A stretch of 33,415 nucleotides of DNA from Candidatus Dormiibacterota bacterium. Lineage in GTDB: Bacteria; Patescibacteriota; Saccharimonadia; UBA4664; DATLOE01. Shown in pieces: positions 11,761 to 33,415 of this stretch; within the stretch, counting starts at the first letter, position 1; each line of letters opens with the position of its first letter. The position numbers and the translations under genes were made by a program. Location: NCBI GenBank assembly GCA_035536395.1, contig DATLOE010000001.1:1-33415 (forward strand), in the 5' to 3' direction. A model generated the notes under the pieces. The model worked only from the letters and a program-made list of their open reading frames with translations. It made no database searches and had not been told where the DNA came from.

Positions 11761-11850
11761 TGGCGGAGAGAGCGGGATTCGAACCCGCGATACGGTTTCC
11801 CGCATACACGCTTTCCAAGCGTGCGCCTTCAGCCACTCGGCCACCTCTCC
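11761..11850 (-). tRNA. tRNA-Ser(GGA)
   Basis: 90 nt with a long variable arm typical of serine tRNA. Acceptor GGAGAGG pairs with TCTCTCC (one G-U), anticodon loop TTGGAAA gives GGA (reads UCC/UCU), T-arm has GGTTCGAATCC, and CCA is encoded. Confidence 0.96.
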
Positions 11851-18897: not shown

Positions 18898-19911
18898 TTA
18901 GTAGAATAGCCGCTTTTTAGCGCGGATCTCATAAGCTGCGGCCAAGCGTTCCCCAAATGCCCGCCAGAGCCTATATGAAGCCGTATTAAGCACTAAATCA
19001 TACGTACCGATGAACTCGCTTATGCTTGGGTTAAAACCGGTCTTAAAGCGCGCCAGGCCGCTTAGGGGGTGATTAGGGTTATCAATCTGATCAGCTGGCG
19101 GTGTGCCATGTAGGTCGTATTCTTTCACACTCCTAGCCTTCAGCCATTTCGTAATCTCCCATTGCAGCAGGTATGGCGCTTGCAGCTCGCTATGCTCACG
19201 CACCGAACCGCCGTCTTTATACAGGGCTGCTGAACCCAGATAGGTTACAAAAGCTCCAGCCAGCACCTTGCCTTCGTAGCTGGCAAAAAACATCTGGCCA
19301 GTGCCGCTATTCGCATGCAGCTGCCAAAAGTCGGTGAAATACGCCTTATCACGCAAGTAAAAACCTGCGCGCCTCTGGGTGCTTTGCATTAAGCTGTACA
19401 TCTGCTTGATCGATTCTGGGTTAGTTTCAACCGTCTCAACCTTTACCCCCTTCTTTTCAGCCAGGCGAATGTTATATCTGGTCTTTTGCTTGAAGGAGGC
19501 CAGTATCTCGTCTTCGCTGGGCGCAAGATCAACTATGACAGTTGCGATGTTGTACTGGATGTCATGCGGCGCCCTTTCAAAGCCCGAGCCTACCACGCCA
19601 CCTTTTTTTATTTCAGGGTCGATTCTTACGGCAAAGGCGTCGGTTTTTTTAAGTTTGGCCGCCAGCCGCTGCAGCTGCACAGTGTCTTTCACGCCAGGCC
19701 CTTTAGGGATATACCAAAATTTGCCTAATCCTAATATTTCCCTTTGCAAAGCCAAAATCGCAATGTTTTCAAATACTAAATGTTTGGCCTGCCAGCCGTG
19801 CCTACTCTTAACCTCGCCGAAGGCTCTAGCCTGCAGCACGTTGCCGCCATCGGGGTTGGCCGCTACTAGCTCATTCCACTTTGCTAGTTCCTCGGCTGTC
19901 GCTTCTCTCAT
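18898..19911 (-). CDS. FemAB-family peptidyltransferase, paralogue 1
   Basis: FemAB/FemX proteins use aminoacyl-tRNA to add the first residues of the interpeptide bridge to lipid II. The 337-aa protein has two GNAT-like halves. Typical elements are YNIATVIVDL, SFKQKTRYNIRLAEKKGVKVE, LAGAFVTYLGSAALYKDGGS, and the C-terminal signature YDLHGTPPAD...GLARFKTGFNP...IGTYDLVL. There is no long coiled-coil arm. It overlaps the upstream paralogue by 4 nt (ATGA), so translation is coupled. The residue added is unknown; Ser, Gly or Ala are typical (family knowledge). Confidence 0.88.
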   Translation of the reverse strand: MREATAEELAKWNELVAANPDGGNVLQARAFGEVKSRHGWQAKHLVFENIAILALQREILGLGKFWYIPKGPGVKDTVQLQRLAAKLKKTDAFAVRIDPEIKKGGVVGSGFERAPHDIQYNIATVIVDLAPSEDEILASFKQKTRYNIRLAEKKGVKVETVETNPESIKQMYSLMQSTQRRAGFYLRDKAYFTDFWQLHANSGTGQMFFASYEGKVLAGAFVTYLGSAALYKDGGSVREHSELQAPYLLQWEITKWLKARSVKEYDLHGTPPADQIDNPNHPLSGLARFKTGFNPSISEFIGTYDLVLNTASYRLWRAFGERLAAAYEIRAKKRLFY

Positions 19912-20861
19912 AGAGGTAGAATCCTTTTTACCAGGCGATAAAACAAATACTTAACCGACTTAATAGGAATGTCATATGTGCCGGCATACTCTACTGGCTC
20001 TCCGCCGAATGATTGCTTGAACTTGCTCAGGCCAGCCCACGGGTGGTTTGGCTGATCAGATGGGGCGACCCCCCAAAAATCGAACTTGGTCAGACCGGCC
20101 GCCTTGGCATCCAAAATCATGTGCCACACTAGAGGCCTAGCAGCCTGCAGCTCCTTATTCAGCTGCTGGAACGAAGCCGCATGGGCATAGTAACGAGTTC
20201 CACCGAAATCGAACCCAATGGCGCCTGCCACCTCCTTGCCATCCATGCCGGCAAAGAAGAGCTTGGTTGCACCTTGCGGCATGAGTGTGGCTAGAAGCGC
20301 CGTCATATACTTATCACTATGCGGCCGAAACCCTGACTTGCCCGCAGTATCATGCAGCATGTCTAAAAATAATTTTATATCCCGTTCGCTAGATGATGAC
20401 CGCAGCACTAGCCCAGAGCGCTCACTTTTATTAATAATGTTTCGGTTGCCGGAGGAAAGATTTGCGCGCAGTTGCTCAGGCGTAGAGGATAGGTCTAAAA
20501 CCCAGCTGCGAGAAGGCTGCATATCTGGTATTCGTCTGCCCCTGCTTAAGGCCTCTTGGCTGATATTCCCAATAGGTTCAAACCTGACAAAGTCTACCCC
20601 CTCTTGCTTACCCGCAGCCTGCAAGGAGCGTAGCCAATCCTCGCCCGTCCCAACTGCCGGGCCGTAAGGAACGTATAAGTACTTCACTCCCCTGCCCTCT
20701 ACAACCGAGCCGCACCACATCCAACCCTCGCCTTGTCCATAGACTACTTTACGGCCCAAGTCAGCTTGGAACTGCGCCCAAGCTCGGCTTTGCAGAATGC
20801 CGCCGCCTAGCTCAATAAGAGCTTCGTCCCACGATTCTTGAGGTATTCCAGTATTGATCAT
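19908..20861 (-). CDS. FemAB-family peptidyltransferase, paralogue 2
   Basis: The 317-aa first gene of the pair shows the same fold: YLYVPYGPAVG, NLSSGNRNIINKSERSGLVLR, EVAGAIGFDFGGTRYYAHAAS, and FDFWGVAPSD...GLSKFKQSFGG...AGTYDIPI. Divergence from its neighbour suggests that the two add different residues or act in sequence, as FemA and FemB do in Staphylococcus (inference). TGG-TACAAT ends 8 nt before ATG, so it also looks leaderless. It is transcribed away from tsaD; its start and the tsaD -35 lie within about 30 bp. Confidence 0.88.
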   Translation of the reverse strand: MINTGIPQESWDEALIELGGGILQSRAWAQFQADLGRKVVYGQGEGWMWCGSVVEGRGVKYLYVPYGPAVGTGEDWLRSLQAAGKQEGVDFVRFEPIGNISQEALSRGRRIPDMQPSRSWVLDLSSTPEQLRANLSSGNRNIINKSERSGLVLRSSSSERDIKLFLDMLHDTAGKSGFRPHSDKYMTALLATLMPQGATKLFFAGMDGKEVAGAIGFDFGGTRYYAHAASFQQLNKELQAARPLVWHMILDAKAAGLTKFDFWGVAPSDQPNHPWAGLSKFKQSFGGEPVEYAGTYDIPIKSVKYLFYRLVKRILPL

Positions 20862-21975: not shown

Positions 21976-24510
21976 ATGAAGATGGAAAAGGCTTACGAGC
22001 CAAAGCGGTATGAGGCCGGAATTTATAAACTCTGGGAAGAGTCTGGCGCTTTTGAACCTCAGGGCGACCCCAAGAAAAAGCCCTTTTGTATTATTATGCC
22101 GCCTCCAAATGCCAACGGCTCTCTCCACACTGGGCACGCAATGTACACAGTGGAGGATGTCATTACCAGATTCAAGCGTATGCAGGGCCACCCCACCCTT
22201 TGGCTGCCTGGCACCGATCATGCCGGTATTGAGACTCAGTATGTGTACGAACAGGAGCTAGCCAAGCAAGGCAAAAGCCGTTTTGATTTAGGGCCCACAC
22301 AGTTTTACAATGATTTGCTTACTTTCACAAGAAAACATCAAGGGCAAATTGTCAACCAGTTAAAGTCTCTAGGTCTAAGCGCCGATTGGAGTAAGCTCAA
22401 ATTCACGCTAGATGAAGACGTAATCGAAATCGTATATGACACTTTCAAGAAGTTGCACGATGATGGCTTAATTTACCGTGGTAACAGAATAGTTAACTGG
22501 TGTACTAGGTGTAATGCCGCCTTTGCCGATGTGGAAATTAAGCATATTGAGAGAGAGGACGAAATATATACTCTCGATTACGGCTCACTAAAGATCGCTA
22601 CCACCCGCCCCGAGACAATCTTTGCCGATGTGGCAATAGCCGTTAACCCAAAGGATAAGCGTTACAAAAAACTAATAGGGCAATCGGCTACCATTCCCTT
22701 GGTTAACCGCCCTATTCCTATCGTGGCCGATACGCACGTAGACCCAGATTTCGGTACCGGCGCGCTTAAGGTTACGCCAGGGCACGACGCTCACGATTAT
22801 GAGATAGGAATTCGCCACACTTTGCCAGAAATTACCGTTGTAGATCCTAGCGGTAAGATGATTAACGTGCCTGAGCAAGTCGCCGGCCTCTCGGTGGGCG
22901 CTGCCCGGTTAAAGACTGTCAGCTGGCTAGAAAAAGAAGGTAAGATGGCAGGCCGTAAATCGCTCATCCACTCTGTTGGCACACATGACCGTTGTGGAAC
23001 GGTAATAGAACCCCTCATTACCGAGCAGTGGTTTATGCATGTAAAGCCTTTGGTCGAACCGGCTATAAAGGCCGTAAAGGAGCAAGATACCAAGCTCTAC
23101 CCCGATAGGTTCAAGAAAGTGCTGATTAGCTGGCTGGAAAACCTGCATGATTGGAATATTAGCCGACAGATATGGTGGGGCATTCGTATACCTGTCTACT
23201 ACAAAACATCGAATGATCCGCACAAAGAAGCATATATAATCTCATGGGAAGAAAAAGAGGCTATCGCCTATTACGGCAGGGGTAATTACCGAGCGGAAAC
23301 CGACACCTTCGACACTTGGTTTTCTTCAAGTCAATGGCCTCACATTACCCTGATGACCACAGGCGAATTCAAACGCTTCTACCCTACTGCTTTTATGGGA
23401 ACAGCTCGCGATATTTTGACGAAATGGGTTGCTACCATGATGATGATGGGCCTTTATCGCACTGACAAAGTCCCCTTCTCTGATGTCTATCTCTGGGGTA
23501 TGGTGAACGATGAACATGGTAAGAAAATGAGTAAGAGTAAGGGCAATGTGGTTGATCCTTTAAGGATGACCGAGAAATACGGCACTGATGCGCTCAGATT
23601 AGCTCTGACACTAGGTATTACCCCCGGAAACGATGGCTCATTAAGTGAGAGAAAGATAGAAAGCTACCGTAATTTCTGTAATAAGCTCTGGAATGTAGCC
23701 CGTTTTACCCTAGAAAAGGCCGATGACAGCGTGAGGCCTGGCAAGCCAGAGCCTAAAAGCCTAGCTGACTGGTGGATACTGGATAAATTGACTAGGGAAA
23801 CTACCGATATCACTGCTGCGATAGAAAATTATAAGTTTAGTGAAGCTGGTGAAAGAATCTACTCCCTACTCTGGAATGACCTGGCCGATTGGTATATTGA
23901 AGCCTCTAAAAAGGAGGTTAACCCGGGTGTACTGGTCTACTGCCTAGAAACAATCCTCAAACTCGCCCACCCCTTTGCTCCATTTGTAACTGAAGCTATT
24001 TGGCAGAAAATCCCTTGGCAAAAGCAAAATCTCATTACTGCAGCTTGGCCGGATCCAAAACTGTCTTATTCAGCACAGAGTAAGCATTTTGAACAGATTA
24101 TGGCTTTGGTAAGCCAAATTCGTAGCATTAAAACCACTTTAGGAATTTCTAAGCCGTCATTACTTTTTAAGTCCTCTAAAATCATTACGGACAATCTGAA
24201 TCTGATTGAAGGCTTAGCAGGAACAGGAAGTATTACAGAGAGCAAGCAGGGGAGCGGGCTGCAGATTCCAGTGCGGGGTATGACTGTTTGGATTGATGTC
24301 GATCAAAAAACAGTTAATAGCTACCAAAAACAGCTTCAGAAACAAAGCAGCGAGATAGGGGGGTACCTAAAAAAACTAACCTCCCAGCTAGCTAATAAAC
24401 GTTATATAGAATCTGCTCCTAGTCATCTCATTCAGCAGACCAGAGAGCGCAAAAAAGAAGCAGGGGAGTTGAAGGCAAAGCTTGATGAACAGATTAAAGC
24501 CATCAAATAA
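21976..24510 (+). CDS. valS: Valyl-tRNA synthetase
   Basis: Charges tRNA-Val. The 844-aa class Ia enzyme has the HIGH-type motif in PPPNANGSLHTGHAM, the editing domain (about residues 190-340; TTRPETIFADVAIAV, GTGALKVTPGHDAHDYEIG), DTWFSSSQWP, the KMSKS loop in GKKMSKSKGNVVDP, and an anticodon-binding domain with a C-terminal coiled coil (QLQKQSSEIGGYLKKLTSQLANKRYIESAP) that is typical of ValS. The start may be the first or third codon (both Met). The last 26 nt overlap the next gene. Confidence 0.97.
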   Translation: MKMEKAYEPKRYEAGIYKLWEESGAFEPQGDPKKKPFCIIMPPPNANGSLHTGHAMYTVEDVITRFKRMQGHPTLWLPGTDHAGIETQYVYEQELAKQGKSRFDLGPTQFYNDLLTFTRKHQGQIVNQLKSLGLSADWSKLKFTLDEDVIEIVYDTFKKLHDDGLIYRGNRIVNWCTRCNAAFADVEIKHIEREDEIYTLDYGSLKIATTRPETIFADVAIAVNPKDKRYKKLIGQSATIPLVNRPIPIVADTHVDPDFGTGALKVTPGHDAHDYEIGIRHTLPEITVVDPSGKMINVPEQVAGLSVGAARLKTVSWLEKEGKMAGRKSLIHSVGTHDRCGTVIEPLITEQWFMHVKPLVEPAIKAVKEQDTKLYPDRFKKVLISWLENLHDWNISRQIWWGIRIPVYYKTSNDPHKEAYIISWEEKEAIAYYGRGNYRAETDTFDTWFSSSQWPHITLMTTGEFKRFYPTAFMGTARDILTKWVATMMMMGLYRTDKVPFSDVYLWGMVNDEHGKKMSKSKGNVVDPLRMTEKYGTDALRLALTLGITPGNDGSLSERKIESYRNFCNKLWNVARFTLEKADDSVRPGKPEPKSLADWWILDKLTRETTDITAAIENYKFSEAGERIYSLLWNDLADWYIEASKKEVNPGVLVYCLETILKLAHPFAPFVTEAIWQKIPWQKQNLITAAWPDPKLSYSAQSKHFEQIMALVSQIRSIKTTLGISKPSLLFKSSKIITDNLNLIEGLAGTGSITESKQGSGLQIPVRGMTVWIDVDQKTVNSYQKQLQKQSSEIGGYLKKLTSQLANKRYIESAPSHLIQQTRERKKEAGELKAKLDEQIKAIK

Positions 24511-25327
24511 GCTACTGTTCTGGGCGGGCGGCGCTGTTTTAGCTACTAGTGTGTTCTTTGGGTGGGTAATTCCCTCGACTAAATCGCATGCCCAAAAGCT
24601 GGCAACCCAAGCTGAACAGTACCGCTCAAGCAACCCGGCCCAGGCTTTAGCCGGCTATAAAATGGCAGCCTTCCTCGACCCCAGCCAGCCTGATTACAAC
24701 TACAGAATGGCAGATATTTACCTGGCACAAAACCAGCCAGGTAAAGCCATGAGAGCGCTTGATCAAGCCGGAACCCCTAACGCACAGTTAAAGGCTATTG
24801 AAATTGAGCTGAGATCCAGCCGCTTCCAGGCAGCCCAGAAAAGAATCGAAAAAGCTATTAAGCTCGAGCGGACTCCTGGGTTATACATACTGCAAGCCAA
24901 AGCCAGCCTAGAGGCAGGGGATAGCGCTAATGCTCTTGCCTCGGCCAAAGCAGCAGGCAATAAAGCAGCTTCAATAGAATCTTTTGCTCAGCGGGTACAC
25001 TCCAAACAGCAGGGTGCCACCGCGCTAGCTTTAGCCAGGGATTTATATGGTAATGGCATGCCTGTCTCGGCGAATCGGATTTTGGATGAAACAGCACCTG
25101 AGAGCACCCTTTGGTATGCCCTCAAGGCCGATATACTGCTAACCCAACAGAAAGTAACAAAAGAAAACTTACTAGCGGCTAAAGATTACTTGAAAGCAGC
25201 CATTAAGATGGCGCCTTATGATATTAGCCTGCACAGGCAGATAAAATCGGTTTTTGATAGGCTAGGCGACAAACAGCAGAGCCAAGCAGAGGAAGAATTA
25301 ATCAGGCAACTGGTAAGCCAGAAGTAA
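24485..25327 (+). CDS. Membrane-anchored TPR-repeat protein
   Basis: The 280-aa protein has an N-terminal anchor (basic MNRLKPSNK, hydrophobic LLFWAGGAVLATSVFFGWVI) and then about 240 residues of helical repeats facing outside. TPR-like units are visible: PAQALAGYKMAAFLDPSQPDYNYRMADIYLAQNQPGKAMRALDQA, RIEKAIKLERTPGLYILQAKASLEAGDSANALA and a C-terminal pair ending AEEELIRQLVSQK. TPRs are protein-binding scaffolds; the partner is unknown. It overlaps valS and is likely translationally coupled; ATG at 24485 is preferred over the adjacent TTG. It may belong to the surface assembly apparatus, but nothing in the sequence shows this. Confidence 0.7.
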   Translation: MNRLKPSNKLLFWAGGAVLATSVFFGWVIPSTKSHAQKLATQAEQYRSSNPAQALAGYKMAAFLDPSQPDYNYRMADIYLAQNQPGKAMRALDQAGTPNAQLKAIEIELRSSRFQAAQKRIEKAIKLERTPGLYILQAKASLEAGDSANALASAKAAGNKAASIESFAQRVHSKQQGATALALARDLYGNGMPVSANRILDETAPESTLWYALKADILLTQQKVTKENLLAAKDYLKAAIKMAPYDISLHRQIKSVFDRLGDKQQSQAEEELIRQLVSQK

Positions 25328-25369
25328 AAAGTAAAAGGCCCGGCCAGAGAATAAATCTCCGGCCGGGCC
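25325..25369 (-). terminator. Terminator of the two-gene unknown operon
   Basis: A 9-bp GC stem (GGCCCGGCC at 25337-25345 with GGCCGGGCC at 25361-25369), followed on the reverse strand by TTTTACTTTTTAC. The plus strand lacks a T run, so it serves the reverse-strand operon. Confidence 0.82.
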
Positions 25370-25396
25370 GTACCCCCCCCTGGGGCGTAGCAGCTA

Positions 25397-25603
25397 TCAG
25401 CTGGGTGTGGGAAGCCAAGGGGCTTCTGTGAAGTCGCCACCCAGCGTCTGAGCCTCCTGGCAGAACCTGTGCTGGGAGATCACTGCCTGGCCCTCTAGGG
25501 CCACCTGAAGCTCCTCGCAAGCCTCAAGGGGTGGCAGATGACCGAGCATGTCGGTAAACGGCGTGTCGGCCTCTGAGTCCCTTGTAAGTACAGCAGATTC
25601 CAT
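25397..25603 (-). CDS. Small uncharacterised protein (68 aa)
   Basis: Not recognised. It starts at ATG 25603 with a strong GAGGAG SD 4-5 nt upstream and follows the 168-aa gene by 13 nt. The protein is acidic, has one Cys (HRFCQEA), no membrane segment, and a Pro-rich end (PWLPTPS). Position and a shared terminator make it the second gene of a two-gene unit. Base composition is GC-rich relative to nearby AT-rich stretches. The function is unknown. Confidence 0.55.
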   Translation of the reverse strand: MESAVLTRDSEADTPFTDMLGHLPPLEACEELQVALEGQAVISQHRFCQEAQTLGGDFTEAPWLPTPS

Positions 25604-25616
25604 ATCTCTCCTCTGT

Positions 25617-26123
25617 CTAGTGGTTGGCGGTTACAAGTGTGGCTTCAGTCTGACGCTGAAAGCGACCGGTAGCCCGGCTTTCTGCTCCAGATGCTGATTT
25701 GGCCGGTTCAGGGGAAGGCTCTTGATCCCTCGGCCGGCCAGCCCATTCAGGCCGCTCGCTTGTCTCTCGTAGAGACACGAGGTAAAAACCTTCTTCTTTC
25801 GCCTTTAGGCTGCCTAGGAAAAAATCTATCTCCCTAAGCTCTATGCAAGGCGGAAAGTTTTCGTCATCTGGGTGCCTTAGAACCATTCTGCCGGGCAGCT
25901 TGGTGGTCGGATCGGCGAAATTGAAGTCGATGACGTACTCCATCGCCGGTACACTGAACTGGCAGGGACTGATTAGGCACCAATCTCCTGCAGCAGTACG
26001 AAAAACCTCCATAACAGTCGGCAAGGAGTCGCAATCGCATGGATTCAATACCTTGCGGGCTGTGCTTTGGATGGCACTTACGGCACTACTAACTACGGTA
26101 CTACCCGGTAGCGTTTTGAGCAT
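25617..26123 (-). CDS. Uncharacterised protein (168 aa)
   Basis: Not recognised. ATG 26123 has GGGAGG about 10 nt upstream; earlier in-frame starts lack an SD. Residues about 25-130 look like a compact soluble domain with alternating strands (LPTVMEVFRTAAGDWCLISP, MEYVIDFNFAD, LPGRMVLRHPDDENFPPCIEL, EEGFYLVSLRETSERPEW). The last 40 residues are polar and Pro/Ser/Arg-rich, probably disordered. Three or four cysteines occur (CDCDS, WCLI, PPCIE). It is probably cytoplasmic. The 229 bp upstream hold only a possible TATAAC box and an inverted repeat (TCTTACC/GGTAAGA, about 26228-26247). Confidence 0.55.
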   Translation of the reverse strand: MLKTLPGSTVVSSAVSAIQSTARKVLNPCDCDSLPTVMEVFRTAAGDWCLISPCQFSVPAMEYVIDFNFADPTTKLPGRMVLRHPDDENFPPCIELREIDFFLGSLKAKEEGFYLVSLRETSERPEWAGRPRDQEPSPEPAKSASGAESRATGRFQRQTEATLVTANH

Positions 26124-26352
26124 ACGGGTGTAACCTCCCTTGTTATAGTTTGTCCACGCCTCAATACCGCTCTCTATCGGAACAGCACAGAGCCATCGGC
26201 AAACACAATTCAAGCTATAAATGGTCTTACCCTTTAAGGTAAGAAGTTAGAATAACATCAAGTTTGTCAGTTGGCAATAACATTTTTAACAAAACAATGT
26301 GGCGAATAAAAAGTTTTTTTGGGCGGTTGCTAGCTTGTAAGAAATTATCTAT

Positions 26353-26442
26353 TGGCGGAGAGGGTGGGATTCGAACCCACGATACCGTTGCCGGCATACC
26401 GCTTTTCGAGAGCGGCGCCTTCAACCACTCGGCCACCTCTCC
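26353..26442 (-). tRNA. tRNA-Ser(CGA)
   Basis: 90 nt, acceptor GGAGAGG, anticodon stem CCGCT/AGCGG with loop CTCGAAA (anticodon CGA, reads UCG), long variable arm, T-arm GGTTCGAATCC and encoded CCA. Confidence 0.96.
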
Positions 26443-26461
26443 GTATTGCATAATTATTGCA

Positions 26462-26538
26462 TGGTGCGCTCGGCAGGGCTCGAACCTGCGACCTCCAGTA
26501 CCGCAAACTGACGCTCTATCCAACTGAGCTACGAGCGC
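26462..26538 (-). tRNA. tRNA-Arg(GCG)
   Basis: 77 nt. Acceptor GCGCTCG/CGAGCGC, D-arm GCTC/GAGC, anticodon stem TCAGT/ACTGG (one G-U) with loop TTGCGGT, so anticodon GCG (reads CGC and CGU), T-arm GCAGG/CCTGC, discriminator A and encoded CCA. Most bacteria read these codons with an ACG tRNA edited to inosine. Confidence 0.93.
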
Positions 26539-26585
26539 ACATCAACCGCAAAAGATTACCATAAACTGGGGCTTCTGGGAAGGCG

Positions 26586-27086
26586 CTAAAACCGCATATA
26601 ACGGCTTAGGCGCTCTACCATATCCAGCTTGCGATCGGCCCTGGGAAGATGGGCAGCCAGAACCTGCCCGATGCTTTCAAAATTGTCGTTTTCACAGATT
26701 AAGGTTAGCCGGGGCATAAAACGGCGTGAAGGCTCCAAATCTATACTGCGCCAAGCTACCTCCTGAAGCACACCATATGATCTGAACTGATTGTATGGAT
26801 ACAGCTTACCCTCCACCGTAATACCATGCTCGTCTACCTGGTAATTTAGGGTGCGGGGGGCTTTTTTGGAATACATAAATAGAGCCAGGGTCATAACAGC
26901 TACTACCGCCACACTAAACCATTGCTGGAAATAGGCAAGAACGGCCGCTAGGGCAGCCATAATTAAGATTAAACTTAAGTACCAGAACGTAGGTTTTTCA
27001 TGAAACACGTACTCAGATGCCTGCCAAGTAACAGGTTTAATATGAGTATTATCTTCGGCCGCCTGGAGGTTTTGTGGTAGCTCCAT
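26586..27086 (-). CDS. Two-helix membrane protein with a C-terminal soluble domain
   Basis: Not recognised beyond topology. The 166-aa protein has a polar N-terminus (residues 1-30), two hydrophobic helices (about 33-52 and 56-74) split by a two-residue turn, and a soluble C-terminal domain of about 90 residues with strand-like pattern (RTLNYQVDEHGITVEGKLYPYNQFRSYGVL, FMPRLTLICENDNF) and a helical end (DRKLDMVERLSRYMRF). The layout, a hairpin plus a PH-like beta domain, resembles small bacterial PH/DUF membrane proteins. No clear SD is visible; AGAGAG and a weak TAAATT precede the ATG. It is flanked by tRNAs on both sides. Confidence 0.65.
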   Translation of the reverse strand: MELPQNLQAAEDNTHIKPVTWQASEYVFHEKPTFWYLSLILIMAALAAVLAYFQQWFSVAVVAVMTLALFMYSKKAPRTLNYQVDEHGITVEGKLYPYNQFRSYGVLQEVAWRSIDLEPSRRFMPRLTLICENDNFESIGQVLAAHLPRADRKLDMVERLSRYMRF

Positions 27087-27157
27087 CTCTCTGTAATTTA
27101 CTGCTCTTATTATGCATTACGCTTATGGTAAAGTAAATTTTTTATATTGATGCAAAA

Positions 27158-27185
27158 TTGTAAACCGGGCTGCAGCTGTTATAAT
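27158..27185 (+). promoter_or_regulatory. Promoter of the tRNA-Ser(TGA)-tRNA-Ser(GCT) unit
   Basis: TTGTAA (27158-27163), 16-nt spacer, TGT-extended TATAAT (27180-27185). Predicted start near 27193, about 25 nt before the first tRNA. Confidence 0.75.
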
Positions 27186-27217
27186 CGATTTTCGTCAGAT
27201 AGAATAGTCATTAGCGA

Positions 27218-27307
27218 GGAGGGGTGACCGAGTGGTTGAAGGTAGCAGTCTTGAAAACTGCCGTGCCGGCAACGGTACCGTGGGTTCGAATCCCACCCCC
27301 TCCGCCA
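27218..27307 (+). tRNA. tRNA-Ser(TGA)
   Basis: 90 nt, acceptor GGAGGGG/CCCCTCC, anticodon stem GCAGT/ACTGC with loop CTTGAAA (TGA), long variable arm, T-arm GTGGG/CCCAC, discriminator G and encoded CCA. Confidence 0.96.
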
Positions 27308-27333
27308 AAGTTTGTTAAAATACTAGACGACGT

Positions 27334-27426
27334 GGAGAGGTACCCAAGTGGCTGAAGGGGCTGGTTTGCTAAACCGGTAGGGGGGCGCAAGTTCCCGCGA
27401 GAGTTCGAATCTCTCCCTCTCCGCCA
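27334..27426 (+). tRNA. tRNA-Ser(GCT)
   Basis: 93 nt, acceptor GGAGAGG/CCTCTCC, anticodon stem CTGGT/ACCGG with loop TTGCTAA (GCT, reads AGC/AGU), long variable arm, T-arm GAGAG/CTCTC, encoded CCA. It lies 26 nt after tRNA-Ser(TGA), probably on one transcript. Confidence 0.96.
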
Positions 27427-27553
27427 AGTAATGCATCTGACTTTAGTCGGATTTATTACTTGATGAGATAGACTTGCACGAGCGCGGCGCGAGCAAAGCG
27501 AGCCGTGAGAGTTCGTCACAACGTGGTGCAGTATCTCTCCCTCTCCGCCAAGT
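27409..27553 (+). repeat. Duplicated 3' end of tRNA-Ser(GCT): att-like or decayed tRNA copy
   Basis: A 21-nt direct repeat (27409-27429, covering the T-stem, acceptor strand and CCA of tRNA-Ser, and 27533-27553). The second copy is preceded by the same GAGAGTTCG as the tRNA T-arm, but with about 17 extra bases in the T-loop position and no 5' acceptor partner. In between lie a nested hairpin (AAGTAAT...ATTACTT around ATCTGACT/AGTCGGAT, 27426-27461) and a helix GAGATA/TATCTC with TGCAC/GTGCA inside. Duplication at a tRNA 3' end is the mark left by integrase-type elements. A decayed tandem tRNA is the other reading. No integrase gene is in the window. Confidence 0.6.
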
Positions 27554-27574
27554 TATTATTTTTATCAATTTTAA

Positions 27575-28231
27575 CTAGTGCTTGGCGGCTACTGCGCCCC
27601 AGACCGTCTTAGCACCGGCAGATTTTAATACCCTAGCGCATTCATTTAGTGTGGCGCCTGTTGTCAGCACGTCGTCTACCACCAATACCTTTTTCTGGGG
27701 CAGGGGATTATTAACTACAATTGTATCTTTTATTTGGCTCAAGCGATCATTTCGCCGCGCGCCGACCTGCTGCTTACTGCCTAGGCGAATCATAGTCGGG
27801 CAATAGGGCACTCCCATATGGATAGAAAGCGCCTTGGCCAACAGCTCAGCTTGGTTATAGCCGCGCTGGCGGTAACGGCTGGCCGCTATCGGAACACTTG
27901 TAATGAAATCAAAGCCGGCAGCTGGCACATGCGGGGTCATAGCCACCGCCAATACCTCTGCTGCATCGCGATTGCGCTCGTACTTTAGTAGGCCGATTAG
28001 CTTTTTTACAGTGCCTTCATAGTGAGAAGCCACTACCACACCGCTTAAATTGGCAGACGAACGACAGGTTTTGCATGTTCTGCCCAGCGCGCTTAGCTTA
28101 TTACACCTGAAACAAGTTGGTGTTTTTTTTACAACGATATAAGTACGGCAATTTTGGCAAATTAGCGCTCCTTCTCGGTTGCATTCCAGGCATTCAGGAG
28201 GCGAAATAATTTGTAATAGGGCTTGAATCAT
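27575..28231 (-). CDS. comFC: ComFC-type phosphoribosyltransferase-like competence protein
   Basis: The 218-aa protein has an N-terminal double zinc ribbon with four CxxC pairs (CLEC, CQNC, CFRC, CKTC; residues about 14-60) and a C-terminal PRT domain with the PRPP motif VLVVDDVLTTGATL. FDFITSVPIAASRYRQRGYNQAELLAKAL is the family's diagnostic segment. ComFC acts with ComFA on incoming single-stranded DNA during natural transformation (family knowledge). CPR bacteria, which depend on scavenged nucleotides, often keep com genes. The gene ends 21 nt after the tRNA-Ser repeat and diverges from hsp20. No clear SD is seen. Confidence 0.88.
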   Translation of the reverse strand: MIQALLQIISPPECLECNREGALICQNCRTYIVVKKTPTCFRCNKLSALGRTCKTCRSSANLSGVVVASHYEGTVKKLIGLLKYERNRDAAEVLAVAMTPHVPAAGFDFITSVPIAASRYRQRGYNQAELLAKALSIHMGVPYCPTMIRLGSKQQVGARRNDRLSQIKDTIVVNNPLPQKKVLVVDDVLTTGATLNECARVLKSAGAKTVWGAVAAKH

Positions 28232-28263
28232 AAAAAATCATTTAGTTTATGCTTACCGGTGTA

Positions 28264-28293
28264 TTGCTTTTATCTGATGAGTTTGCATATAAT
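28264..28293 (+). promoter_or_regulatory. hsp20 promoter
   Basis: TTGCTT (28264-28269), 18-nt spacer, TATAAT (28288-28293). The leader is about 73 nt. AAGTA/TACTT flanks the GGAG SD and places it in a loop. No CIRCE is seen. Confidence 0.6.
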
Positions 28294-28373
28294 ATGCGAA
28301 AGGCAAGACACGTGCAACATATGGTGTTGGTGGCGAGGCCTCAATTTGTTCAAGTACTAAGTGGAGAATACTT

Positions 28374-28811
28374 ATGGCAAAAAAGAGCCAAAACAGCGAA
28401 GAAAATGTGCTTCAGGATGAGTTCCTGAGCGAAGCAGATGACAGCCAAGATTGGCTGCAAGAGGAAGAAGAGGAAGAGGTAGAGGGTCAGCTGGCCGTTG
28501 ACGTTTATCAGACCAAAGAAAACGTCGTAATTAAGGCCCCGATTGCCGGGGTGGATCCTAAGAACTTAGAAGTCGCTATTGCCGAAGACGTAGTTACTAT
28601 TCGCGGCGAAAGAGTAGAAGAGAGTGTAGTAGACCGCGAGCACTATTACGTGCAGGAGTGCTACTGGGGGGCATTTAGCCGCTCAATCATTCTGCCAGCC
28701 AGTGTTAATGCTGATAAGGCAGAAGCCTCGCTTAAGAACGGTGTGCTGACGATTTCTATTCCGAAAGTCGTCCAGGACAAAGTTAAGAAGATTAGAGTCG
28801 TAGCCAGCTAA
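28374..28811 (+). CDS. Small heat shock protein (Hsp20/alpha-crystallin family)
   Basis: ATP-independent holdase that keeps unfolding proteins soluble. The 145-aa protein has an acidic disordered N-terminal arm (runs of Glu at residues 31-37), the alpha-crystallin domain (about 44-130; VDVYQTKENVVIKAPIAGVDPKNLEVAIAEDVVTIRGE) and the closing ASLKNGVLTISIPK signature. The C-terminal IxI tail is not obvious: it ends KKIRVVAS. GTGGAG precedes ATG by 7-8 nt. The gene has its own promoter and shares a bidirectional terminator with the last pilin gene. Together with the groES-groEL operon it forms the stress set of this window. Confidence 0.95.
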   Translation: MAKKSQNSEENVLQDEFLSEADDSQDWLQEEEEEEVEGQLAVDVYQTKENVVIKAPIAGVDPKNLEVAIAEDVVTIRGERVEESVVDREHYYVQECYWGAFSRSIILPASVNADKAEASLKNGVLTISIPKVVQDKVKKIRVVAS

Positions 28812-28869: not shown

Positions 28870-29277
28870 CTAAGCAGCAGGGGCTAGCTGGCCGGTCACA
28901 AAGCCGACAATAGCAAAGGCCAGAATGGCAACTACAATACCGATGATGGCATATAGAATGGTGTTCTTAGCCGATTCAACTTTTTTAGGGTCACCATTAG
29001 AGATTACATACTGCAAGCCACCCAAGATCAACATAATGACGGCTATGGCGCCGATCAGGAAGATGAGAATGTTAGCAATTTGCTGGAATGTACCGCCCTC
29101 ACCGAATAGGGTGGTGGTGTTACTGGTGCCTTTAGCACAATCTGCGCCTTCACCAATGGTCAGGCTATTCGGGTCACAGGCTGCATCCTGTCCTAGTGCG
29201 GCAGCAGGAATAAAGGTGCTGAAGTAAACGCCGGCTTCGGCGGTTTTTCTTAATACTTTAGAGGTAGTGTTTTTCAT
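28870..29277 (-). CDS. VirB2/TrbC-like pilin, paralogue 8 (last, separate promoter)
   Basis: 135 aa. Residues 1-30 form a signal-like segment (VYFSTFIPAAALGQDA), followed by a short exposed part with a Cys pair (CDP...ADC, 13 residues apart) and two membrane helices joined by the array's hallmark loop SNGDPKKVESAKNTILYAI. The second helix is IGIVVAILAFAIVGFV. The hydrophobic-loop-hydrophobic core is that of VirB2/TrbC pilins, the subunits of type IV secretion or conjugative pili. It is separated from the other seven by 62 nt and has its own -10 boxes and SD (AAGGA), so its expression may be set independently. Pilin function is inferred from family resemblance. Confidence 0.72.
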   Translation of the reverse strand: MKNTTSKVLRKTAEAGVYFSTFIPAAALGQDAACDPNSLTIGEGADCAKGTSNTTTLFGEGGTFQQIANILIFLIGAIAVIMLILGGLQYVISNGDPKKVESAKNTILYAIIGIVVAILAFAIVGFVTGQLAPAA

Positions 29278-29293
29278 TATGATTCCTTTTTTT

Positions 29294-29327
29294 AAGATTA
29301 TACCTTAATCTTACCGTGATTATAGCA
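29294..29327 (-). promoter_or_regulatory. Tandem -10 boxes with overlapping palindrome before pilin 8
   Basis: Two TATAAT boxes (29319-29324 with a TGC extension, and 29297-29302) lie 16 bp apart. The second is inside a 7-bp inverted repeat (AAGATTA/TAATCTT, 29294-29312), which may be an operator or an RNA hairpin. Leader to the ATG: about 12-35 nt. Confidence 0.5.
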
Positions 29328-29339
29328 TAAGTACTTTAC

Positions 29340-29699
29340 TTATTTAATATTGCTTGTAACGAAGCCGATTATAGCGTAAGCCAAAATAGCCACTACTACT
29401 CCGACTACACCGTACAGAATGGTGTCTTTGGCCCTTTTGATTCGGGCCGGGTCGCCGGCAGAGGTTACGTAGGTCAGTCCGCCAATGATTAGTACAAGCA
29501 CAGCCACGGCGCCTACCACGAATATCAGCACATTTGCTATCTGCTGGATGGAGTTTACCAGCGATTGAGGTGCGCTTTCCGGCCTAACCTCGGCTGCTCC
29601 CCTGTGGGCTTCGTTGTGAGCCTTGCCTTCGTGAAAAGCCATGGCAGCGCCTGGAACAAGCAGAGATAGATAAATTAGTGAGCTAGTCAGTTTCTTCAT
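29340..29699 (-). CDS. VirB2/TrbC-like pilin, paralogue 7
   Basis: 119 aa. It has a signal peptide (MKKLTSSLIYLSLLVPGAAMA) with cleavage likely before FHEG, a His/Glu-rich exposed part without cysteines (HEGKAHNEAHRGAAEVRPES), then two helices around SAGDPARIKRAKDTILYGV. It overlaps paralogue 6 by 4 nt (ATGA), so translation is coupled. Lack of the Cys pair and the His-rich stretch distinguish it from its neighbours; the stretch could bind metal. This is a guess from composition. Confidence 0.72.
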   Translation of the reverse strand: MKKLTSSLIYLSLLVPGAAMAFHEGKAHNEAHRGAAEVRPESAPQSLVNSIQQIANVLIFVVGAVAVLVLIIGGLTYVTSAGDPARIKRAKDTILYGVVGVVVAILAYAIIGFVTSNIK

Positions 29700-30115
29700 A
29701 ATCTTGTTAGTACAAATCCTACTACAGCATAGGCTAGTAGCGCCACTATTAACCCCATAACCGCATACAGAATGGTGTTTTTGGCTTTGGTGATGCGGGC
29801 TGGGTCGCCAGTGGAGGTTACATAGCCGATACCGCCGATTATTATTATTACCACTGCTACCGCGCCGGCGATAAAGAGCAGAGCGTTATTAATGTTATTT
29901 ATGAAAGTCGTGAGCTCCTTACCAGTATCACACCGAACCATATTACCGGCGGTGGCAGTAGGAACACTTTTTCCTTCGCCATCTAGGGGGGTGCCTTTGG
30001 CCCCTAGGCAGGCTTCATATTCAGCTCTTGTAGCTGCCAGCACTTGAGCTGAGGGTGCAATTATTAAAACTCCAAGCATGACCGTAAAAAATGATGCCAG
30101 AAATCGCTTTCCCAT
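29696..30115 (-). CDS. VirB2/TrbC-like pilin, paralogue 6
   Basis: 139 aa. Signal peptide ending AQVLAA, an exposed part of about 40 residues with one Cys pair (YEACLG...MVRCDTG), then two helices around STGDPARITKAKNTILYAV. The nucleotide sequence is identical to paralogue 5 over 60 bp at this loop (29757-29816), far more than neighbouring parts, which indicates recent duplication or gene conversion. One nt separates it from paralogue 5 and it overlaps paralogue 7 by 4 nt. Confidence 0.73.
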   Translation of the reverse strand: MGKRFLASFFTVMLGVLIIAPSAQVLAATRAEYEACLGAKGTPLDGEGKSVPTATAGNMVRCDTGKELTTFINNINNALLFIAGAVAVVIIIIGGIGYVTSTGDPARITKAKNTILYAVMGLIVALLAYAVVGFVLTRL

Positions 30116-30116
30116 A

Positions 30117-30458
30117 CTAAAGCCTCCCGATGACGAACCCGACTATGGCATATGCCAGGATCGTAACTATTAAGCCAATAACCGCATACAGAATGGTGTT
30201 TTTGGCTTTGGTGATGCGGGCTGGGTCGCCAGTGGAGCCGATGTAGCCGATGCCGCCTATAATCAGAATGACAACCGCAATTGTACCGGCTAGATAGAAT
30301 CCCATGTTAATAAGGTTGCTAATGTATCCCGTTAATGCCCCCTCCCCGCAAGTTCCGCCTACGGCTTGTGCCCCTTCGCATTGCGGCTGCGCCAAAGCTA
30401 TGGCAGGAATTAGTGCCACGGAACCGGCTGATATTAATCTGGTTAAAAACTTCTTCAT
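30117..30458 (-). CDS. VirB2/TrbC-like pilin, paralogue 5
   Basis: 113 aa, the shortest signal-bearing member. Signal peptide MKKFLTRLISAGSVALIPAIALA with cleavage before QPQC, a Cys pair 10 residues apart (QCEGAQAVGGTCGEG), then two helices around STGDPARITKAKNTILYAV. Its start codon overlaps the stop of paralogue 4 (TAATG). It shares a 60-bp identical stretch with paralogue 6 (30178-30237). With so little sequence beyond the membrane part it is the closest to a bare VirB2-type pilin. Confidence 0.74.
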   Translation of the reverse strand: MKKFLTRLISAGSVALIPAIALAQPQCEGAQAVGGTCGEGALTGYISNLINMGFYLAGTIAVVILIIGGIGYIGSTGDPARITKAKNTILYAVIGLIVTILAYAIVGFVIGRL

Positions 30459-30877
30459 TAAAGCCTCTGTATTACGAATCCTATAATCGCCCGCGCGATA
30501 ATGGCTACGATTAACCCGATAATAGCATATAAAATCGTGTTTTTGGCATTGGCGATTCTAGTTGGGTCGCCGGTGGAGGTAATGTACTTAATGCCGCCGA
30601 TGACAATAAAGGCAATAGCTACGATTGAAGCCGCGAATATGAAGAGGTCTAGCAGGGTGGCCAAGTAGCTAGTCTGGGCATCACCGGCAGCATTTTGGCT
30701 TGGCTTGTCTAAGCTCTGATTACCCTTATTGCAGCCCGCTAAAAATGAAACCTTATTTGCATCTTGAGTGGCTTCACAGGCACCGTTTTTAATTGTCTCT
30801 AGTGGCCCCGCGGCCAAAGCCGGGGAGCTAAGCGAAAAGCAGGCAACAAGAGCCAGGGTATACGTAAGCTTTTTCAT
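30458..30877 (-). CDS. VirB2/TrbC-like pilin, paralogue 4
   Basis: 139 aa from MKKLTYTLALVACFSLSSPALAA, a clear signal peptide; the start at 30919 was rejected because it would precede the signal peptide. The exposed part has a Cys pair (GACEA...LAGCNKG), then two helices around STGDPTRIANAKNTILYAI. TACAAT (30885-30890) ends 7 nt before ATG, so an internal leaderless promoter inside the operon is possible. Otherwise it is read through from paralogue 3 after 16 nt. Confidence 0.73.
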   Translation of the reverse strand: MKKLTYTLALVACFSLSSPALAAGPLETIKNGACEATQDANKVSFLAGCNKGNQSLDKPSQNAAGDAQTSYLATLLDLFIFAASIVAIAFIVIGGIKYITSTGDPTRIANAKNTILYAIIGLIVAIIARAIIGFVIQRL

Positions 30878-30893
30878 TACGCCAATTGTATAA

Positions 30894-31529
30894 CTACTTG
30901 GGTAGATTGGCCACCACAAAGTCTACAATCGCTTTAGCCAAGATGGCTAGTATCAGGCCAATAATGGCATAGGTAATGGTATTCTTGGCGCCTTCGATGT
31001 TCTTAGGGTTGCCACTAGAGCTGGCGTAACGGATGCCTCCTAGCACAAGGAAGAAGGCCGAAAGCACAGCCGTCACCAAGACCAGCAAGTCGACTATGAC
31101 CACAGCAACTCTTTTAAATGTCAGGTTGGGGGTATTAACATTATCTACCTTGCCGGCAATCTCATTAACGTCTTTTTTAATAACCCGATCAATATATTGA
31201 TCGGTTCTGTCTCTAAGGGTTTGAGGCTGGTTCGGCTGGCCTTCCGTAATGTTCTGCACCCCTGCACCCACATACTGCATTAAGCAGCCATCAACATCGC
31301 CGGTTTTCTGTGAGTTGCACTGGTATTTTTTTGCAGCTGCCTCAATTTCGGCCACCACATTATCGCAAGTGCCTTCGGCATTAGTTCCCACCTGATTTTT
31401 ACACTGGGCTATGTAAGTGGAGGCTTTGTAGTTGCCGGCCAGCAAGTTCGGTGCCGCAAAATAGGCAGCAGCTGAAATTGAGAAGAGCAACCCTGCGGCC
31501 AAAAACGGTTTTTGGAAAAAAGGCTTCAA
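30894..31529 (-). CDS. VirB2/TrbC-like pilin with a long exposed domain, paralogue 3
   Basis: 211 aa, the largest of the array. After a signal-like helix (LAAGLLFSISAAAYFAAP) comes an exposed domain of about 120 residues with four cysteines (AQCKNQ, GTCDN, YQCNS, DGCLM) and a charged helical stretch (RDRTDQYIDRVIKKDVNEIAGKVDN). The two membrane helices surround SSGNPKNIEGAKNTITYAI, with Asn in place of the usual Asp of GDP. It may be a tip, base or adhesin-type subunit rather than a bulk pilin (inference). It overlaps paralogue 2 by 4 nt. Confidence 0.7.
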   Translation of the reverse strand: MKPFFQKPFLAAGLLFSISAAAYFAAPNLLAGNYKASTYIAQCKNQVGTNAEGTCDNVVAEIEAAAKKYQCNSQKTGDVDGCLMQYVGAGVQNITEGQPNQPQTLRDRTDQYIDRVIKKDVNEIAGKVDNVNTPNLTFKRVAVVIVDLLVLVTAVLSAFFLVLGGIRYASSSGNPKNIEGAKNTITYAIIGLILAILAKAIVDFVVANLPK

Positions 31530-31810
31530 CGGAATCTGCCTAATATAAATTCAATTATCAGAAATGCCCCGGCTGAGAGCACCAGCCCGAATATGGCGTA
31601 GGTAATGGTGTCTTTAGCGCTTTTGATTCTACCGGGATCGCCTTGGGAAATTACATAGTTAATACCGGCCCAAATGATCATTATGACGGCCAGTACGCCA
31701 GATAAGATAAGGATGATTTCTATGATGTTAGCAAAAATTATCGGTATGACGGCAATACTGTTAGAAGATAAATCCGCGCCTTTAAAAATACTGGGAAAGA
31801 GATCGTTCAT
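31526..31810 (-). CDS. VirB2/TrbC-like membrane protein without signal peptide, paralogue 2
   Basis: 94 aa. It lacks a signal peptide and the exposed Cys-containing part: only a short N-terminus (MNDLFPSIFKGADLSSN) precedes two long helices around SQGDPGRIKSAKDTITYAI. It may insert by the Sec-independent or YidC route, or be an accessory inner-membrane subunit. It starts 1 nt after the stop of paralogue 1. The lost ectodomain makes it the most divergent in design. Confidence 0.7.
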   Translation of the reverse strand: MNDLFPSIFKGADLSSNSIAVIPIIFANIIEIILILSGVLAVIMIIWAGINYVISQGDPGRIKSAKDTITYAIFGLVLSAGAFLIIEFILGRFR

Positions 31811-31811
31811 G

Positions 31812-32258
31812 CTATGTTACCCCGATTAGGTTTAGGAAGGCCGCCATAATTAAGAGTAGCACGAGGCCGGTGGCCGCCTGCTGAAGCTGCTTTTTGGCCG
31901 CCTTAATGTCATCCGGGCTGCCCCCAGAGATAATGTAGCGGAAACCGGCATAGATAATCACAGCTACCAGCATTAGCCCGAGTAGGCCAAGCATGAAGTT
32001 TGCCAGGGCTTTGATAAAGACAAATATCGGATTGGTGTTCTGATCGCCCACGCAGGTAGCTGTGCCAAACAAACCGCCCGTGCCGACAAAGACTCCGCGG
32101 CGATCATTGCAGACTACTTTATTTTCCGGATTCTCAGCATTTTGGGCACTTGGAGCGTTTTTTGAGCTTTGAGCATAGGCGACCAGCGACACATTAGTGC
32201 CAAGCACGGCAGCCACAAGAAACGGGGTGATAATTATTGCGGTAAGCAGGTTCTTCAT
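31812..32258 (-). CDS. VirB2/TrbC-like pilin, paralogue 1 (first gene of the array)
   Basis: 148 aa from MKNLLTAIIITPFLVAAVLG. A signal peptide ends at VAYA, followed by a Ser/Asn/Pro-rich stretch, a Cys pair 19 residues apart (VVCNDR...TATCVGD) and two helices around SGGSPDDIKAAKKQLQQAA. The loop is the least conserved of the eight (GSPDD for GDPAR), and the second helix differs (TGLVLLLIMAAFLNLIG). Start ATG 32258 is preferred over 32267 because TAGAAT ends 7 nt before it, so the mRNA is leaderless or nearly so. It leads the operon. Confidence 0.72.
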   Translation of the reverse strand: MKNLLTAIIITPFLVAAVLGTNVSLVAYAQSSKNAPSAQNAENPENKVVCNDRRGVFVGTGGLFGTATCVGDQNTNPIFVFIKALANFMLGLLGLMLVAVIIYAGFRYIISGGSPDDIKAAKKQLQQAATGLVLLLIMAAFLNLIGVT

Positions 32259-32265
32259 TACCCCC

Positions 32266-32295
32266 ATTCTATCTGTGTAGCTTACCTGATGTCAA
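32266..32295 (-). promoter_or_regulatory. Pilin-operon promoter
   Basis: TTGACA (32290-32295), 18-nt spacer, TAGAAT (32266-32271), then 7 nt to ATG 32258. It probably drives at least paralogues 1-7. Confidence 0.72.
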
Positions 32296-32340: not shown

Positions 32341-32347
32341 TATGCTT

Positions 32348-33415
32348 ATGAAGCGGAGCAGGTTACTCCTGACGGTGAGCATGTATTTTGTGGTTGCAAT
32401 TGCAGCCGTATTTTTGCCGTCTTTTGACGTATCTATAAATAATGGAGTAAGTATCAAAATCCCTGCCGCTCATGCTGCCGATGCAAAAAAGATGTGTGAG
32501 GATAGTGATAAAAAAACCCTCTGCGAAATACTTGTAAATGAGGCGAGCACACAACTGGATGACTGTAAGGGTAACGCACTAGAGAAAGCGGGCTGTCAGT
32601 CGGCTCTCATTACTTCACTTCAGTCAAAGTGCCAAAGCAGCTCGAGCGATACAGCAAAATATCGTACATGCATAAGATCTGAGGCAGCCAGCGCCTCACC
32701 AACAACCGGCAGTGGTGGCGATGATGAAGGCTGCGGCACGGCATTCGATTGGATTGTCTGTAAAATCATCCGGGGGGTGGCCGATACGGTAGAGTTTGTG
32801 GAAGACAGGTTCATTCAGCCGTTTTTGGACTTTAAACCGCTTAGTACAAGTGTAGATTCAAACCCGATGTATAAGGTCTGGCAAGTGATGCGTAATCTTG
32901 CCAACGCCCTGTTCATCATCATCTTTCTAGTCTTCATTTTCGCGAATACGCTCTCTATTAACCTCGATGCCTATACCGTCAAGAAAATGCTGCCCAAACT
33001 GGTAGCGGCGGCTATTTTAGTACAGCTGTCTTACTTGCTGGCCTCGCTGGCAATCGATATTACAAACATCTTCGGCCGTGGGCTGTTTATATTGGGTAAT
33101 GATATTATTCCGCCCTACAGCAGCCCCGACGGCAGCGGGGAAGTGCGGGGAGGGCTGCTCGGCTTAACTGGTCTAGCGGTTGGCGCAGCAAATCTGGCTT
33201 TTGGCGCAGTTACCGGCAGCATCTTCGTGGTGATGATCGGCGCCTTCTTCGGTATTATGGCAGTGTTTTTAACGCTGATGTTCCGGCAGATATTAATTAC
33301 CGTCCTCATTATCGCAGCACCAATTGCATTTGCCTTGTGGGTACTACCCAATACCGAAAACCTCTTCCGTAAGTGGTTGGATATGTTCATAAAAGTACTG
33401 GCTATGTATCCGTTA
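32348..33415 (+). CDS. VirB6/TrbL-like polytopic protein of a type IV secretion system, 3' end cut
   Basis: Reads open to the window edge (356 codons, no stop). The N-terminus has a hydrophobic segment (TVSMYFVVAIAAVF) and a processing-like AAHA; next comes an exposed region of about 100 residues with at least seven cysteines (KMCED, TLCEI, DDCKG, AGCQS, SKCQS, RTCIR, EGCGT). From about residue 190 there are at least four membrane helices (ALFIIIFLVFIFANTLS, KLVAAAILVQLSYLLASLAI, GSIFVVMIGAFFGIMAVFLTLMF, ILITVLIIAAPIAFALWVL), then a polar NTENLFRKWLDMF. That order, with the RQILITVLIIAAPIAF helix, fits TrbL/VirB6-type channel proteins. The neighbouring pilin array supports this. The start is 32348, not 32342, by promoter distance. 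Confidence 0.8.
   Translation, partial: MKRSRLLLTVSMYFVVAIAAVFLPSFDVSINNGVSIKIPAAHAADAKKMCEDSDKKTLCEILVNEASTQLDDCKGNALEKAGCQSALITSLQSKCQSSSSDTAKYRTCIRSEAASASPTTGSGGDDEGCGTAFDWIVCKIIRGVADTVEFVEDRFIQPFLDFKPLSTSVDSNPMYKVWQVMRNLANALFIIIFLVFIFANTLSINLDAYTVKKMLPKLVAAAILVQLSYLLASLAIDITNIFGRGLFILGNDIIPPYSSPDGSGEVRGGLLGLTGLAVGAANLAFGAVTGSIFVVMIGAFFGIMAVFLTLMFRQILITVLIIAAPIAFALWVLPNTENLFRKWLDMFIKVLAMYPL

Follow-up and report, generated by a model that had tools for sequence, protein, structure and literature searches.

Tandem arrays of VirB2-type pilin genes have been described for the Patescibacteria. A recent report counts 441 such arrays in 383 assemblies, each with 2-11 genes, finds them to be abundant in Microgenomatia and Saccharimonadia with a mean identity of 25%, and reads them, by analogy with Bartonella and Anaplasma, as an adaptation to host strains (Quinonero-Coronel et al. 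2025, PMC12102498). In Southlakia epibionticum ML1, a type IV secretion system (T4SS) with a series of pilins was shown by transposon sequencing (Tn-seq) to be essential for epibiotic growth (Wang et al. 2023, PMC10633639), and a review describes this system as a T4SS that perhaps produces a pilus (PMC12857230). Here we describe an array of eight pilin genes beside a VirB6-like gene, found in a 33,415-nucleotide (nt) stretch of DNA (the window) from an ultrasmall bacterium of the class Saccharimonadia, Patescibacteria, which is probably a host-dependent epibiont. Classical conjugative systems usually carry one pilin gene per locus, and the original prediction, made from the letters of the window, had taken the set of eight as unusual and as a candidate for an undescribed system.

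Neither view could be kept. The patescibacterial arrays of PMC12102498 consist of the same families in tandem, with low identity between members and with a chromosomal T4SS, and nothing essential differs here. Furthermore, of 380 genomes sampled across the phylum, 371 encode the T4SS_pilin family (PF18895), with a highest copy number of at least 15, so that an array of eight is ordinary for the phylum. The locus also resembles that of S. epibionticum (SEML1_0006-0019), in which the pilins lie inside an MPF-FATA-like (mating-pair formation, FATA class) T4SS cluster with VirB4, cell-wall enzymes, and no coupling protein in the cluster; S. epibionticum has six pilins that are essential by Tn-seq, whereas the eight considered here are known from the genome alone. 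We found no mention of positional orthology, the gap pattern, or a recurring short member in the available part of PMC12102498, and we suggest that the positional analysis given below is an addition to the described pilin arrays rather than evidence of a new system.

Family and operon layout of the eight pilins

The genome comprises 642,558 bases in 22 contigs and is 96% complete; the window is contig C1. As predicted, all eight open reading frames (ORFs) are present on the minus strand, adjacent and head to tail (28870-32267, with a probable start of member 1 at 32258). They are flanked on one side by an Hsp20 gene (28374-28811) and on the other by the VirB6-like gene, which runs from 32342 to the contig end. 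Counted from virB6, the features are:

32266 to 32295, minus strand: promoter-like site TTGACA-18-TAGAAT, between the array and virB6, upstream of member 1, 11/12 consensus matches
31812 to 32258, minus strand: pilin member 1, 148 amino acids (aa), 2 Cys in the ectodomain, PF18895 42.4 bits
31526 to 31810, minus strand: pilin member 2, 94 aa, no signal peptide, 0 Cys, PF18895 36.6 bits
30894 to 31529, minus strand: pilin member 3, 211 aa, largest ectodomain (~113 residues, 4 Cys), PF18895 38.8 bits
30458 to 30877, minus strand: pilin member 4, 139 aa from the ATG at 30877, PF18895 44.6 bits
30117 to 30458, minus strand: pilin member 5, 113 aa, PF18895 43.1 bits
29696 to 30115, minus strand: pilin member 6, 139 aa, PF18895 56.3 bits
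29340 to 29699, minus strand: pilin member 7, 119 aa, 3 His, no Cys, PF18895 44.3 bits
28870 to 29277, minus strand: pilin member 8, distal, PF18895 48.5 bits, preceded by a 62-nt gap

All eight proteins scored above the PF18895 cut-off of 26.6 bits (36.6-56.3 bits; E 5e-9 to 3.5e-15), and a whole-genome profile search returned exactly these eight. In contrast, no array member reached the cut-off of PF04956 (TrbC/VirB2; 27.9 bits), the best score being 25.3 bits for member 6. Thus, of the earlier description as VirB2/TrbC-like, assignment to the VirB2-type T4SS pilins is supported, while membership of PF04956 does not; judged by profile scores, T4SS_pilin is the right family for the eight. The PF18895 matches rule out unrelated membrane families for the array proteins. 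The classical TrbC/VirB2 proteins share with them two transmembrane helices, small size, a T4SS neighbourhood and, for most of the eight, a signal sequence as judged by hydropathy. Member 7 also exceeded the cut-off of 40 bits for NCBIfam NF045849 (42.6 bits; the other seven fell below it), which represents the Mbov_0395 family of pilin-like conjugal transfer proteins from integrative and conjugative elements of mycoplasmas and has the same core.

The loop motif GDPxRIxxAKxTI had been ascribed to all eight members. GDP is present in six, but its place is taken by GNP in member 3 and by GSPDDIKAAKKQL in member 1. As had been noted, the exposed parts differ among the members in length, charge, and Cys content. 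The numbers of Cys in the exported part of members 1 to 8 are 2, 0, 4, 2, 2, 2, 0, and 2, and an even number is likewise found in ~90% of the pilin members across the arrays of relatives; such counts fit what would be expected of disulphides in the exported part. Hydropathy agrees that member 2 lacks a signal peptide, since its hydrophobic stretch begins at about residue 14-25, and most arrays have a similar short member (~95 aa, usually without Cys or a signal peptide) as their second or third gene. The signal of member 8 is weakly hydrophobic. Member 7, which had been called His-rich, has just the 3 His.

Within the array, the genes overlap by 4 nt or are separated by 1 nt, with two larger gaps, one of 16 nt ahead of member 4 (whose probable start, MKKLTYT..., is at 30877, the listed ORF start being 30919) and the one ahead of member 8. 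This pattern recurs in relatives. Over 59 arrays the median intergenic gap is 3 nt; it is -1 to 0 nt ahead of genes 2-4 and 68 nt ahead of the last gene, where 66% of the gaps exceed 40 nt. From this spacing, the proximal array genes are judged to be translationally coupled. The original prediction had allowed for stage- or host-specific alternative pilins, of which one or a few would be made at a time, and the differences in length, charge, and cysteines of the exposed parts would suit such a set. However, genes that overlap or abut in one translationally coupled operon fit poorly with stage-specific expression, as does a single strong promoter-like site at the operon head, and we consider this explanation very improbable. 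The site itself is only suggestive, because chance alone would give as many promoter-like sites in the region; overall, promoter and terminator scans of the region gave results at chance level. The site ends 7 nt ahead of the likely ATG of member 1, and a transcript starting from it would therefore be leaderless or nearly so.

Position within the array across families

The named relatives are Candidatus Saccharibacteria/Saccharimonadia. PF18895 is present in 75 of 80 relatives, mostly in 5-8 copies, and 65 loci that hold both an array and virB6, some of them cut by contig ends, were used for the positional comparison. In all 65 the array points away from virB6, and in the relatives compared its first member is the one adjacent to that gene. 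The arrays contain five genes in 20 loci, six in 19, four in 8, seven in 8, eight in 4, three in 4, and one in 2; eight pilins are thus the high end of an ordinary range with a mode of 5-6.

Pilin comparisons, made over ~70 core columns, revealed that a gene's place in the array is conserved. In 64 of 65 cases a position-1 pilin has another position-1 pilin as its nearest relative in other genomes, and for 51 of 63 position-2 pilins that relative likewise holds position 2. Just 52 of 348 pilins find their closest match inside the array to which they belong. When nearest relatives were taken from other families alone, and positions were grouped as first, second, mid, and last, the class agreed in 198 of 334 cases, compared with 107.7 +/- 9.4 (maximum 138) in 2000 label shuffles inside arrays. 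Within genera, the same place is kept in 125 of 141 reciprocal best pairs. The array of the window follows this pattern, given that members 1-5 and 8 are collinear with the array of G001, a genome of another family that also has eight genes: member 2 is nearest to position 2 of that array (51%), and members 3 and 4 have their best matches at positions 3 and 4.

A tree of 19 arrays from different families agreed for the proximal genes. The 'first' pilins of 18 of the 19 arrays, member 1 and 17 others, form one set with 100% support in the Shimodaira-Hasegawa-like approximate likelihood ratio test (SH-aLRT). 'First' required 2 label changes and 'second' 4, compared with ~18 after shuffling, and all five labels together required 31, compared with 65.8. 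A single clade for the last position was also considered, but the tree does not support it. The distal half is where the array grows and shrinks. Between families, the distal core is the best conserved, with an identity of 0.50 versus 0.29 for the first and 0.32 for the second, and the core of member 8 reaches up to 74% identity to distal members of other families, making it a candidate for the major pilin. Taken together, the comparisons, over about 60 relatives, suggest that the array members are old subunits with lasting, different jobs rather than interchangeable variants.

A different view, favoured by the authors of PMC12102498 from the analogy with Bartonella and Anaplasma, is that such genes are alternative versions of one subunit, diversified to match host strains or to escape phage or host defences. 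In those two genera, too, T4SS pilin genes have been amplified in tandem and vary in their exposed parts, a comparison drawn partly from PMC12102498. Within genera, ectodomains are less conserved than cores in 98 of 105 pairs (median identity 0.35 versus 0.65), and for this reason host-driven divergence of the exposed parts is possible; relaxed constraint, however, would also give faster divergence outside the transmembrane core. In addition, members 5 and 6 look like fairly recent duplicates (70% core identity) and are likely to be the youngest duplication in the array. Set against this are the rarity of pilins that are nearest to a member of their own array, the genes' arrangement in one coupled operon, and the positional identity that persists across families and among the within-genus pairs. 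Because that identity is conserved class-wide, variation against host or phage fits poorly, and we regard it as unlikely, although it keeps an appreciable share of our confidence. Bartonella and Anaplasma are diderm, and the conservation of positions between families in Saccharimonadia would be unlike a recent amplification.

Several relatives depart from the usual array. Three genomes of the same class that are 98-100% complete (G012, G068, and G077) yielded neither a PF18895 match nor a VirB6 homologue and have apparently lost this part of the T4SS. Other relatives carry pilin ORFs of great length, 340-714 aa (L190:9123-10145, minus strand; L106:8063, minus; L120:7125, plus; L073:6647, minus). 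Some of these possibly hold more than one pilin core, and those of L106 and L120 have 18-20 cysteines. At ~20 loci, mostly of family f9 (for example L084:9248, L088:9414, L075:6984, and L105:10265), one further pilin gene, standing alone on the opposite strand, faces the array from 1-2 kb past its distal end; it is absent in the window.

The VirB6-like gene and the remaining secretion components

The gene that diverges from the array is:

32342 to 33415, plus strand: VirB6-like polytopic membrane protein, divergent from the array, cut by the contig end at 33415

Homologues of this protein are present in 72 of 80 relatives. The fragment itself gave no Pfam or NCBIfam match, and one full-length homologue matched a TraJ profile with E 2e-4, far below the cut-off. 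Its AlphaFold model is helical, with a predicted local distance difference test (pLDDT) score of 78.6, and the top four PDB matches in Foldseek were TrwI/VirB6 of R388, none of them significant (E >1). Its identification as VirB6-like draws on its place, the literature, and the helical model.

The original prediction would have fallen if the genome lacked T4SS ATPases, but VirB4 was found, together with PrgI and TrsD, on contig C11 of the same genome. Read on its minus strand, C11 opens with the C-terminal part of a VirB6-type protein (L023 = G000:C11, 7655-8929), followed by PrgI/VirB3 (PF12666, 56.4 bits; cut-off 27), a TrsD-like protein (E 9e-9, below the family cut-off), a VirB4 ATPase (NF045971, CD1110 family, 371 bits; cut-off 325), an 884-aa protein, and an SLT/M23 cell-wall enzyme. 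The C-terminal end of the 884-aa protein (L023:1517-4171, minus strand) resembles, by eye, a D-Ala-D-Ala-type peptidase, with no Pfam match. It and the SLT+M23 enzyme (L023:224-1516, minus strand), both downstream of virB4, occupy positions that correspond to those of the essential peptidase/lysozyme genes of S. epibionticum. A PF02534 coupling protein was not found in the 96%-complete genome, although a weak P-loop match is present on contig C9; the Mbov_0395 family, by comparison, belongs to conjugative elements.

Physical linkage in this genome extends from the array to virB6 in C1, and C1 ends and C11 begins within VirB6-type genes. In relatives, virB6 is linked to prgI (L054, L061, and L086, with prgI assigned by likeness to the C11 protein), and in L054 and L061, which belong to the same taxonomic order as this genome, the genes that come next are two copies of virB6 and a PrgI-like gene. 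The VirB6-type fragment of C11 aligns to both virB6 types of the relatives. Because relatives carry two tandem virB6 genes, a second copy may be missing between C1 and C11.

On its other side (region 21976-28811), the array is preceded by a ComF-type phosphoribosyltransferase gene (27575-28231) and a valyl-tRNA synthetase gene (21976-24510). The neighbourhood is syntenic, since a similar synthetase and a ComF-like gene adjoin the array in L061 and L057, which are of the same taxonomic order. Elsewhere in the window, three tRNA-Ser genes (CGA, TGA, and GCT) and a tRNA-Arg gene are clustered within 1.1 kb (26353-27426), with a fourth tRNA-Ser (GGA) at 11761-11850, and two adjacent FemAB-family genes, probably for peptidoglycan cross-bridges, lie near a Mur ligase gene (18898-20861).

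A proposed composite assembly

Considering these results, we favour, with modest confidence, the view that the eight-gene array is the VirB2-like pilin operon of a chromosomal, MPF-FATA-related T4SS that builds one composite assembly of subunits with fixed roles. The eight products would be co-translated from one operon and exported by Sec, except for member 2, whose insertion probably involves no cleaved signal. The pilins would then sit in the membrane as two-helix hairpins. For member 8, AlphaFold predicts such a hairpin (63-92/97-131) with a pLDDT >90 over most of its length. From these hairpins VirB4, PrgI, and VirB6 would build one composite surface filament or channel, which we infer would be used in contact with the host bacterium. 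Proximal genes 1-3 would encode old, distinct, and probably minor subunits with base/VirB6-proximal, adaptor, or tip roles, and distal genes 7-8 the major pilin, which would form the repeating unit and have a translation site of its own. Among the possibilities raised by the original prediction, it is therefore the heteropolymeric or multi-subunit set that is favoured. Positional orthology and the operon structure are the reasons for preferring a composite with a distal repeating pilin and minor proximal subunits.

Several observations weigh against this proposal. On the tree, 'last' required 17 changes, as many as after shuffling, and 'last' and 'mid' mix; because these two classes cannot be separated, roles in the distal half are uncertain. 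Most forks of the tree are unresolved, since the pilin core has only ~70 columns. Copy number varies from 3 to 8 among arrays, and therefore not every subunit is indispensable. Finally, a Foldseek search of the PDB with the pilin hairpin returned helical hairpins, none of them significant. The Aeropyrum conjugation pilus appeared in that search at rank 19 (E 5.7) and was not used as evidence, and searches of PDB sequences gave no match either for the profile of the member-8 lineage or for member 6. In the literature, a search for heteropolymeric pili in Saccharibacteria gave just an unrelated type IV pilus paper.

The structure need not be a filament. Two-helix subunits might instead build a ring or channel collar with VirB6 in the monoderm envelope, with the members in different places. 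T4SSs of other Gram-positive bacteria are not known to have pilins, the T4SS_pilin family is defined by sequence only, and fixed positional lineages together with a short signal-less member would suit a complex of fixed stoichiometry. The distal members, however, show the two-helix hairpin and the strong conservation expected of classical pilins, and both the family name and the literature treat these proteins as VirB2-like pilins; we therefore consider a collar without a filament improbable.

More tentatively, and with somewhat less than even probability, the pilus or collar built by patescibacterial T4SSs may be obligately heteropolymeric, made of several VirB2-type subunits (eight in this genome) that each have a fixed role, with the order of the array, minor subunits first and the major pilin last, reflecting their roles in assembly. 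If so, this would be unlike known T4SSs, whose filaments consist of one pilin. Epibiotic growth requires the T4SS and its pilins in the single cultured Saccharibacterium that has been tested. If the positions in the array do correspond to fixed subunit roles, the reading of pilin arrays as host adaptation would need revision, and single-member deletions and structures obtained from one cultured strain would apply to the class as a whole.

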